A stretch of 34,091 nt of DNA from an uncultured Clostridia bacterium (GTDB lineage Bacteria > Bacillota > Clostridia > Christensenellales > CAG-314): contig CANQGO010000017.1 of NCBI GenBank assembly GCA_947623225.1, positions 1 through 34,091 on the forward strand, read 5' to 3'. Position numbers and translations under genes: made by a program. Numbering within the stretch: the first letter of the stretch is position 1; every line of letters begins with the position of its first letter. The notes below the pieces were generated by a model. The model saw only the letters and a program-made list of their open reading frames with translations, had not been told where the DNA came from and made no database searches. Of the stretch, positions 4,311 through 22,574 are shown piece by piece.

Positions 4311-5054
4311 TCACTTCCATTTGCCGTATGTTGTATTTCCCTCTTTTTTTCTTGTATCTTTGTGACCGCAACAACAGCAGTGAATATATACGTCATGGTA
4401 TTCGGTAGTCACGTCTCGTACATATTTCACATTTCTGTCCCGCTCCACATGCCCTGCGACGCGGTGTTTATCGTCATACACCGTAGCGACGGTTTCCGTA
4501 TATGTTTCCGTTTTTTCGTCTTGGCGTGTTTCTGTTCTGGACGAGTCAGGGACTTTGTCATCTTCTACAATTGATTCAAGCGCGTGACACTCGGGACACG
4601 TTTCAAAGGACTTCTCGTCGGCGCGGAAAGTCGCCATCTCGCCGAAAAATGGGATCAAAAATGCGGTGACGAGGAAGAACCAATTTCGCGTAAAGGCGGT
4701 GATCCCGGAAGTGGCAACGGAAAGTATCCACCCTATCCATCCTATAATGTTAAAAGATTTTCTTATCTTGCCCATTTGATCCCATATTTGCTCTGAGTAT
4801 ATAGGCGTACCCTGCAGAGCAAGTTCACGCAGCCTTTTTTCCGCATTTGCACCTGCCTCAGGATATAATAAACTTGCAGCCACGTATATACTGGAAGTTA
4901 TGGGGACCGCAATTGCCAAAGCAGTGTAATTCAGCATACCAACAGTGCCGGCAACAAACACAGTCACAACGAAATAAAATGCCGGGCTGAGCAGTCCGAA
5001 AGCCAAACCGAATAGCAATCTCTTCAAAACAGTTTCTCTTACAATTCTTTTCAT
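4311..5054 (-). CDS. uncharacterised membrane protein with C-terminal zinc-ribbon-like cysteines
   Basis: The 247-residue protein has about four hydrophobic segments (near 13-35, 42-62, 97-113 and 117-137), then a polar cytosolic-type tail. The tail has CPEC at about 152-155 and a second cluster HCCCCGHKD about 70 residues later, suggesting a metal site made from two distant knuckles. The stretch between is rich in T, E, D and R. ATG at 5054 is preceded by AAAGGAG at ideal spacing; the frame runs upstream but through the structured leader, so the upstream part is not coding. The gene is visibly AT-richer than its neighbours, which may mean recent transfer. It sits alone behind its own consensus promoter and a 190-nt leader with an intrinsic terminator right before the ribosome site. 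I do not recognise the family. Confidence 0.8.
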   Translation of the reverse strand: MKRIVRETVLKRLLFGLAFGLLSPAFYFVVTVFVAGTVGMLNYTALAIAVPITSSIYVAASLLYPEAGANAEKRLRELALQGTPIYSEQIWDQMGKIRKSFNIIGWIGWILSVATSGITAFTRNWFFLVTAFLIPFFGEMATFRADEKSFETCPECHALESIVEDDKVPDSSRTETRQDEKTETYTETVATVYDDKHRVAGHVERDRNVKYVRDVTTEYHDVYIHCCCCGHKDTRKKEGNTTYGKWK

Positions 5055-5084
5055 CTTTCTTCTCCTTTGAAATATATTTTGCAA

Positions 5085-5114
5085 CAAAAAAGTGCCGCTC
5101 TTGCGAAACGGCAC
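5085..5114 (-). terminator. intrinsic terminator inside the leader of the membrane protein gene
   Basis: On the minus strand GTGCCG and CGGCAC (plus 5109-5114 and 5092-5097) form a 6-bp GC-rich stem with an 11-nt loop, followed by six T (5086-5091). It lies just before the AAAGGAG ribosome site of the gene starting at 5054, and downstream of that gene's promoter, so it acts inside the transcript as an attenuator rather than closing an upstream gene. Confidence 0.75.
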
Positions 5115-5250
5115 CTGTAAAGTGCCTACTCGCATAGTTGCAACACCGATTACACAATACATCCTGCAAAGGATCAAATTGAGTGCGAATAAGGTACACT
5201 TTACCTGAGTAAAGTATGCCTTTGCAAAATGTATTAAAATCGGGTTGCAA
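5085..5250 (-). promoter_or_regulatory. structured leader RNA: candidate riboswitch/attenuator or small RNA
   Basis: Transcription from the promoter at 5255-5283 should start near 5248 and cross about 190 nt before the ATG at 5054. The RNA can fold into a long multi-helix arm: plus 5138-5151 with 5238-5250 (13 bp, one bulged A), 5156-5162 with 5229-5235 (7 bp), 5165-5172 with 5219-5226 (8 bp), capped by a 7-bp hairpin ACTTTAC-CTGA-GTAAAGT at 5198-5215. A small hairpin GGCAC/GTGCC (5110-5114 with 5122-5126) follows. Its 5110-5114 strand is the same strand used by the terminator at 5092-5114, so the two hairpins exclude each other, as in transcriptional attenuators. It does not show T-box, TPP or SAM consensus elements I know. 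An independent small RNA ending at the terminator is the alternative. Confidence 0.6.
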
Positions 5251-5254
5251 TGAT

Positions 5255-5283
5255 ATTGTAAAATATTGTGCGCAATTTGTCAA
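5255..5283 (-). promoter_or_regulatory. sigma-A-type promoter of the leader and membrane protein gene
   Basis: On the minus strand TTGACA (5278-5283), a 17-bp spacer and TACAAT (5255-5260). It is the only good promoter between this gene and the deaminase terminator, and places the start near 5248, at the base of the first leader helix. Confidence 0.85.
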
Positions 5284-21655: not shown

Positions 21656-21896
21656 ATAAAGAGTAGATAACGTAAAGAAAAGAGGAAGTAGGACTGCGAG
21701 GAAATTATAATAAACAATGCGAATTTATAAATAAAATATACGTATTTTTTATAATTTAATTTATAAGTTTCAAAAATAATTTTATAAAATACAACGATAT
21801 CGTTCCGCAAATCAGAGAGATCTCACAGGCTCCGGGGGGGGCAAAAACAAAGCGGAACTTTGAGATAAAAAAACAGATATCGAAAAATAAAATCAG

Positions 21897-21968
21897 AAGC
21901 AGAACTCATCAAAAAATAAGATAGAATTCACACCAAATATAAAATAAAAGAGTCGGTATCAAAAAAAA
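21897..21968 (+). repeat. direct repeat, copy 1
   Basis: About 72 bp beginning AAGCAGAACTCAT, containing GATAGAATTCACACC and AGAGTCGGTATC. It matches copy 2 at 22041-22113 except for one substitution and one inserted A. The two copies are 144 bp apart start to start. A weaker partial copy may begin near 21847 (ACAAAGCGGAACT). Confidence 0.85.
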
Positions 21969-22040
21969 TAAAAAGAAGTTAAAACTCCAAATAAAACTCT
22001 CGATAGATAATAAAACAAGCAGGTCGCAAGTCAAAAAACA

Positions 22041-22113
22041 AAGCAGAACTCATTAAAAAAATAAGATAGAATTCACACCAAATATAAAATAAAAGAGTCG
22101 GTATCAAAAAAAG
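22041..22113 (+). repeat. direct repeat, copy 2
   Basis: Second copy of the 72-bp repeat at 21897-21968, nearly identical. Only two copies with one 72-bp interval are present and the unit is too long and AT-rich for a CRISPR array. Confidence 0.85.
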
Positions 22114-22551
22114 AATGAGAAGAAAGCAAGCAAGGAAGTTACTACCCGAACAGACACGGCAGTAATTTTATTTCTATAAAATGCCGGCTATTCATTGCCC
22201 CGGTGTGTATTTTTTTTGGGACAGCCCGGATCTCTCTTTTTTACTTACGTTATCTACTTTGACCAATAGTTTCCCTTGTTTGTCAGATCGTTCGGAGTCC
22301 ACTATCCCCTTCCTGTATGAGGTCGGCTATCGGGTGGATCTCGCACTATTACTTTTTGAGATTTTTTTGTGCGTCGAGAATTCTATCTGTTTTTATTGAG
22401 TTTCGCATTATATTTTTTCTTTTTTTTCGAAACTTGCTTTTTTGCTGTGTTGCCGGTATGGTGATATCCAATACAAGGCGGGGCGAGAGTGACAGACCTA
22501 TCTATGCCTGAAAATGCCAGGCAAGAGAGTTGCGGAACAGAAGTTTTTTAT

Positions 22552-22574
22552 AAAAAAACCCGTCGGGGACGGGT
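22552..22574 (-). terminator. Rho-independent terminator of the hslO operon
   Basis: ACCCGTC (22558-22564) pairs with GACGGGT (22568-22574) over a 3-nt loop, followed by a T-run on the minus strand (22552-22558). It sits about 94 bp after the hslO stop. Confidence 0.9.

Follow-up and report, generated by a model that had tools for sequence, protein, structure and literature searches.

We have found a structured RNA leader in front of a membrane-protein gene of an uncultured Clostridia bacterium and, judging from sequence comparison, it is probably a strand-exchange attenuator that controls transcription in cis, one member of a large family spread over the class Clostridia (probability about 0.8). 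The leader lies on the minus strand of the window, by which we mean the whole 34,091-nt stretch of DNA that was analyzed. An initial annotation of this DNA had proposed an attenuator or riboswitch for this one leader. The attenuator architecture is borne out by homologues, by covariation and by a conserved overlap of antiterminator and terminator, while the picture of a single leader gives way to that of one member of a large multicopy family. Automated candidate lists aside, the family looks new relative to Rfam release 15 and the open literature searched.

The leader in the window

The 170-nt leader RNA, starting at about position 5251, folds with a minimum free energy of -63.9 kcal/mol, against -37.1 +/- 3.7 kcal/mol for 200 dinucleotide shuffles, none of which was equally low (z -7.3). 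Its parts are listed in Table 1. The rod seen in the initial annotation is present, although the three stacked helices of 13, 7 and 8 bp described there resolve into a single long stem interrupted by a hinge, with about 13 bp in P1a and about 17 bp in P1b. The capped hairpin, here P2 (5217-5196, loop UCAG), also exists, with a length of 9 bp rather than 7. The pairing of GGCAC (5126-5122) with GTGCC (5114-5110) was confirmed, and so was its exclusion of the terminator (GTGCCG...CGGCAC, 5114-5092, then six U, 5091-5086): GTGCC is an arm of both small hairpins, so the two cannot coexist. The antiterminator is longer than had been stated, with an outer stem of UGCGA (5134-5130) and UCGCA (5106-5102). 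Copies of ACUUUAC/GUAAAGU were found in the capped hairpin, as reported, and also within the loop of the antiterminator. Absent from the initial annotation is an alternative helix (ALT), in which the P2 3' strand and CCUUAUUCGCA can pair with UGCGAGUAGGCACUUUAC in the tail over 18 bp. The helix energies in the window are -22.1 kcal/mol for ALT, -16.9 for the antiterminator, -14.6 for the terminator and -6.9 for local P2, and the minimum-energy fold of the complete leader contains the antiterminator and not the terminator.

The promoter called consensus in the initial annotation is nearly so, TTGACA-17-TACAAT (5283-5255, minus strand) matching at 11 of 12 positions. The +1 of the window leader is predicted to be the G at 5248, within the P1 5' arm. 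The gene that the leader precedes gave no lead, because the protein search returned no relative: its product has no Pfam match, and no relatives were found in public genomes. The start of the gene behind the closest leader (L003) is visibly similar to its own.

Table 1. Features of the leader, its promoter and its gene, in window coordinates
Feature	Position	Strand	Remark
-35 box TTGACA	5278..5283	-	
-10 box TACAAT	5255..5260	-	17-nt spacer to -35 box
P1a 5' arm	5238..5250	-	closing stem at RNA 5' end; equivalent stem covaries
P1b 5' arm	5219..5235	-	upper rod, sequence variable from copy to copy; conserved AAUA hinge at start
P2 5' strand	5209..5217	-	segment 1
P2 3' strand	5196..5204	-	segment 2; partner either segment 1 or the tail (ALT helix)
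CCUUAUUCGCA	5184..5194	-	single-stranded, past P2; ALT helix extension, possible toehold
P1b 3' arm	5155..5172	-	
P1a 3' arm	5138..5151	-	
Tail segment 3, UGCGAGUAGGCACUUUAC	5117..5134	-	would pair with segment 2 when OFF
5' part of segment 3	within 5117..5134	-	would be antiterminator 5' arm when ON
Segment 4	5102..5114	-	antiterminator 3' arm; overlaps terminator 5' arm and loop
Intrinsic terminator hairpin	5092..5114	-	segments 4 and 5
Terminator six-U tract	5086..5091	-	
Ribosome-binding site AAAGGAG	5062..5068	-	
Controlled gene	4311..5054	-	247-aa membrane protein; C-terminal HCCCCGHK zinc-ribbon-like motif

Distribution and subtypes of the family

A search of Rfam release 15 (4227 models, gathering threshold) with the window and 32 homologous loci matched no element, and the loci from the order and class were again without a match. 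E-value mode gave chance-level matches or unrelated matches elsewhere, the best over the window leader being mir-374 (E 0.18). The search against Rfam that the initial annotation had recommended thus places the window leader in no known family. BLAST of the leader against 41 genomes of the taxonomic family revealed dispersed multicopy relatives in its own genus. These form two subtypes, type 1 (UUGCGACAC...GUGUCGCAACUAUGCGAA), to which the window leader belongs, and type 2 (UACCACAUUA...UAGUGUGGUAACUAUCG), and we treat them as one family because a covariance model of type 1 finds type 2 and vice versa. All type 2 matches that carry a name come from uncultured Clostridia or Clostridiales MAGs, and nearly all of these belong to a single set labelled Lapin, a label from which we read a rabbit gut origin. 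In its own genome the leader has three copies: besides the window copy there is one at C12, upstream of a zinc-ribbon gene, and a degenerate copy at C3, upstream of a lipoprotein gene.

Covariance models, whose E-values come from short calibrations, were used for wider searches. Within the genus, model R1 hit 22 of 25 genomes, against 0 of 16 from other genera of the taxonomic family; it also hit 47 of 347 genomes in the order and 29 of 391 in the class. Model R3, for which most members came from outside the order and a few others were added, found the family in 97 of 371 class genomes, representing 56 of 213 genera, when no more than eight candidates were scored in each genome. When more candidates were scored, one 3.0-Mb genome held 30 copies, and others held 14, 16 and 10. 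Across a phylum sample of 378 genomes the only match was the window's own genome, so the false-positive rate is low. The window element itself matches models R2 (44 bits) and R3 (47.9 bits), both built without it, and has every family part: the P1 spacing, P2, ALT, the antiterminator, the terminator and a downstream gene.

Tandem copies occur, with a second promoter visible between copies in the window's genus and at L123. At L006, L007, L008, L030 and L032 a type 2 copy is followed by a type 1 copy, each with its own promoter, and the pair precedes one lipoprotein or zinc-ribbon gene. No plasmid matches were found. Among viral contigs the genus patterns matched 0 and the class pattern 3, and further copies are present on two scaffolds from human faeces that are labelled as phage; these viral or phage-labelled occurrences (L184-L186, L191 and L192; IMG/VR, human faeces) may be either prophage-borne or on mislabelled bacterial contigs.

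Promoter spacing and comparative support for the pairings

Of 81 relatives with sufficient upstream DNA, 73 have a promoter scoring at least 8/12 near P1, a score also reached by 25% of shuffled upstream regions, and 64 of the 81 tested have an extended -10. Of the 73 scored promoters, 65 have 3 nt between the -10 box and the start of the model, and 7 have 4 nt. Since the start of P1 is thereby fixed 3-4 nt past the -10 box in 72 of 73 cases, promoter and leader form a single cassette, and its RNA is predicted to start at or beside the P1 5' end.

Counts for the named structures were made on 34 class-level sequences. In P1, 99% of cells hold standard pairs and 9 of 12 pairs show double changes; for the ALT helix the figures are 91% and 8 of 14. 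Compensatory changes were found in 4 of 8 pairs of P2 and 7 of 8 of the antiterminator, for which 65% of cells pair, a shortfall that is partly misalignment. Both mutually exclusive structures beat all 500 shuffles and every slid register on all measures. A consensus fold from RNAalifold by itself did not recover P2 and offered weak alternatives, and pairing was for this reason tested by permuted partners and named structures.

In the alignment-free test, the duplex energy of each element's own strands was compared with that of permuted partners among 114 non-redundant elements. ALT averaged -18.3 kcal/mol against -12.8 for permuted partners (sd 0.28; 0/5000), and the antiterminator -15.6 against -10.0 (sd 0.27; 0/5000). 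For the 73 elements outside the genus the values were -18.1 against -13.0 for ALT and -16.2 against -10.1 for the antiterminator, each 0/5000. Permutation leaves relatedness in, which makes these probabilities inexact; the effect nevertheless amounts to many standard deviations and is seen in separate lineages. Within subtype 2 alone, ALT beats permuted partners (0/2000), and within type 1 alone it does no better than they do (1152/2000), because type 1 sequences are too alike. The antiterminator region is more stable than with a shuffled segment 3 in 112 of 114 elements. The mean energies of antiterminator (-13.1) and terminator (-15.9) make them a closely balanced pair.

Segment 3 resembles segment 1, and both are complementary to segment 2. 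The type 1 ALT helix extends into CUUAUUCGCA, beyond the reach of segment 1, and this extension speaks for selection on ALT itself. Unpaired bases are conserved across the class at two places, AAUA atop P1a and UUUUC after P2. The initial annotation had staked its proposal on covariation in homologues and on conservation of the overlap between antiterminator and terminator: homologues exist and covary strongly, and the overlap is conserved across the bacterial class. Strand exchange, which it had called plausible, has the best statistical support of all.

Genes behind the leaders

An open reading frame with a ribosome-binding site of at least 5/6 begins within 110 nt of 84 of the 119 elements, at a median gap of 28 nt. 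The remaining elements, about 35, have no clear gene start in that distance, some owing to contig ends, an intervening second promoter or a second copy. By simple patterns, 54 of the 84 downstream frames have a signal-like N-terminus and 37 a lipobox-like motif. Among 83 downstream proteins, Pfam found BspA-type LRR_5 (20), Listeria-Bacteroides repeats (11), zinc ribbons (9), DUF6273 (5), Big_2 (3), collagen (3) and YpsA/SLOG (2). The downstream genes are mostly those of surface lipoproteins, BspA-type repeat proteins and zinc-ribbon proteins. In the 30-copy genome, reading of the sequence placed further copies before BspA-like proteins, AbrB-like small CxxC proteins and other exported proteins. 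In some genera of the class (L115, L117, L120, L123, L126, L160 and L178) the distance from the leader to the gene is between a few and about 80 nt, and the gene encodes a short CSCFGH.../CSFFGH... protein; these proteins look from their sequences like the SLOG (YpsA) group, two members passing Pfam YpsA.

At six loci of the window's genus (L008:363, L033, L042:1743, L043, L077 and L179:1014) a second promoter lies between the leader terminator and the gene. The 15-17 nt spacer between its -35 and -10 boxes holds a run of 8-10 G (e.g. TTGACAACCGCAAGGGGGGGGGGTAGAAT), and these look like slipped-strand, phase-variable promoters of surface-protein genes. The window has an isolated G8 run as well (21834-21841), which is unrelated to these promoters, there being no promoter around it. 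It lies in an A/T-rich region of about 0.9 kb (21660-22560) that has no open reading frame of at least 80 aa and contains a near-identical repeat about 150 nt apart (gcagaactcat...aaaaataagatagaattcacaccaaatataaaataaaagagtcggtatcaaaaaaa).

Resemblance to known RNAs

The family resembles transcriptional riboswitches such as c-di-GMP-I (RF01051), by which surface genes of some clostridia are also controlled, in having a structured 5' leader with a choice between antiterminator and terminator, an association with surface-protein genes, and multiple and tandem copies in a genome. It differs from them in having no sequence or structure match, and c-di-GMP-I riboswitches are present separately in 3 of 12 genomes. 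With the trp and his leaders it shares the parity logic of 1:2 plus 3:4 against 2:3 plus 4:5; unlike them, it has no conserved leader peptide and its P1 starts at or beside +1. A leader-peptide attenuator was rejected, a Shine-Dalgarno sequence and start codon preceding the tail in only 9 of 114 elements.

T-box leaders (RF00230) are likewise long antiterminator/terminator leaders of Bacillota, but no element matches RF00230, and the sole T-box found (L148:265-502) is a different site. Nor do the leaders have the unpaired UGGN with which a T-box antiterminator receives the NCCA of tRNA: UGGU occurs inside P1 of subtype 2, where it is replaced along with its partner in other members, and is absent from subtype 1. 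The 6S RNA (RF00013) is similar in being a rod of about 160 nt with an internal bubble and dissimilar in that the leaders precede genes and carry an antiterminator. No RF00013 match was obtained up to E 10. The genome has a separate, likely 6S RNA at G000:C15:22963-23171 (L001), which scores 31.6 bits, below the Rfam cut-off.

The family was not described in the open-licence papers searched. Fremin and Bhatt (2021; PMC8040213) list 3161 automatically predicted structured RNAs from human microbiomes, the same type of habitat; excerpts of their main text describe no such family, and the list could hold pieces of it.

Discussion

Comparison of family members shows, at the level of sequence, the pairing of P1, P2, ALT, antiterminator and terminator, the promoter spacing and the position before genes. 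What we infer is the formation of both states in cells, the state that an effector would favour and the nature of that effector. In the proposed mechanism, transcription would start at or beside the first base of P1, and the 5' half of the RNA would form a rod of P1a, hinge and P1b with P2, made of segments 1 and 2, as its cap. In the ON state P2 would remain closed and segments 3 and 4 would form the antiterminator; segment 5 would be denied segment 4, and transcription would read through into the gene. In the OFF state segment 3 would pair with the 3' strand of P2 and with the unpaired nucleotides that follow (2:3, ALT), and the freed segment 4 would pair with segment 5 as the terminator, stopping transcription. 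An effector could bias this choice via the P1 hinge, P2 or the junction. Besides the type 1 permutation result, the incomplete pairing in the antiterminator count and the elements with no clear gene start, further observations speak against such an attenuator: P1 is very stable and formed before segment 3 is made, and the length of P1b varies between copies. With P1 intact, ALT would be a pseudoknot. Candidate routes by which ALT may form in the presence of the rod are a pseudoknot bent at the AAUA hinge, opening of P1, or pairing between two RNA molecules. The candidate effectors are a metabolite, a protein or another RNA, and "riboswitch" is a candidate label.

Two specific forms of the attenuator may be considered. 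It is possible, at somewhat less than even odds, that the leader is a riboswitch binding a metabolite or ion, with an aptamer made of the AAUA hinge, P2 and the junction. The family does have a conserved structured leader with an expression platform, and the strong conservation of the unpaired AAUA and UUUUC, the lack of a conserved upstream open reading frame and the numerous and tandem copies in a genome, a trait of some known riboswitch regulons, are in keeping with this, whereas the downstream genes (surface, zinc ribbon, SLOG, AbrB-like) point to no metabolite. Equally tentative is the wider proposal of an orphan riboswitch class absent from Rfam 15, through which one common small molecule would coordinate the cell-surface proteome of many gut Clostridia by up to 30 promoter-leader cassettes per genome. 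The P1 primary sequence (GCGACACA/UGUGUCGC) is largely conserved despite its ability to covary, and presence is patchy between genera, as would fit a regulon with a losable trans factor; these points favour the second form, in which a dedicated RNA-binding antiterminator or anti-antiterminator protein would recognize P1/P2 and set a surface-protein regulon. We regard this as rather unlikely, and the conservation of P1 could instead reflect the initially transcribed sequence.

Other readings dispense with cis-acting attenuation. The leader might be chiefly a terminated stand-alone small RNA, or a terminated leader acting in trans on other copies, given that segments 2 and 3 can also pair between two RNA molecules, that the terminator is intact, that a paired 5' end would stabilize the RNA and that the poly-G-spacer promoters could express some genes without readthrough. 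We consider this improbable: a plain small RNA would not need the conserved and covarying antiterminator pairing, the elements stand consistently just before a ribosome-binding site and start codon, and they are not 6S RNA, for which the genome has its candidate elsewhere. The dispersed and tandem copies in each genome would also suit a mobile or selfish, MITE-like inverted repeat lying before genes by chance. This is highly improbable, as pairing is kept despite sequence divergence, promoter distance and gene orientation are fixed, the variable part is inside the rod and not at the ends, and there were 0 plasmid matches and few in phage-labelled contigs.

Conclusions

The preferred reading, a strand-exchange attenuator, would mean that an RNA switch absent from Rfam occurs in about a quarter of the Clostridia genomes sampled and reaches 30 copies in one of them, which would place it among the commoner cis-regulatory RNAs in the gut microbiota. 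Its complementary segments provide exact test mutations, which makes the effector of this surface regulon a tractable question. Many of the downstream proteins (BspA-type, lipoproteins, zinc ribbons) are likely to meet the host or other bacteria.
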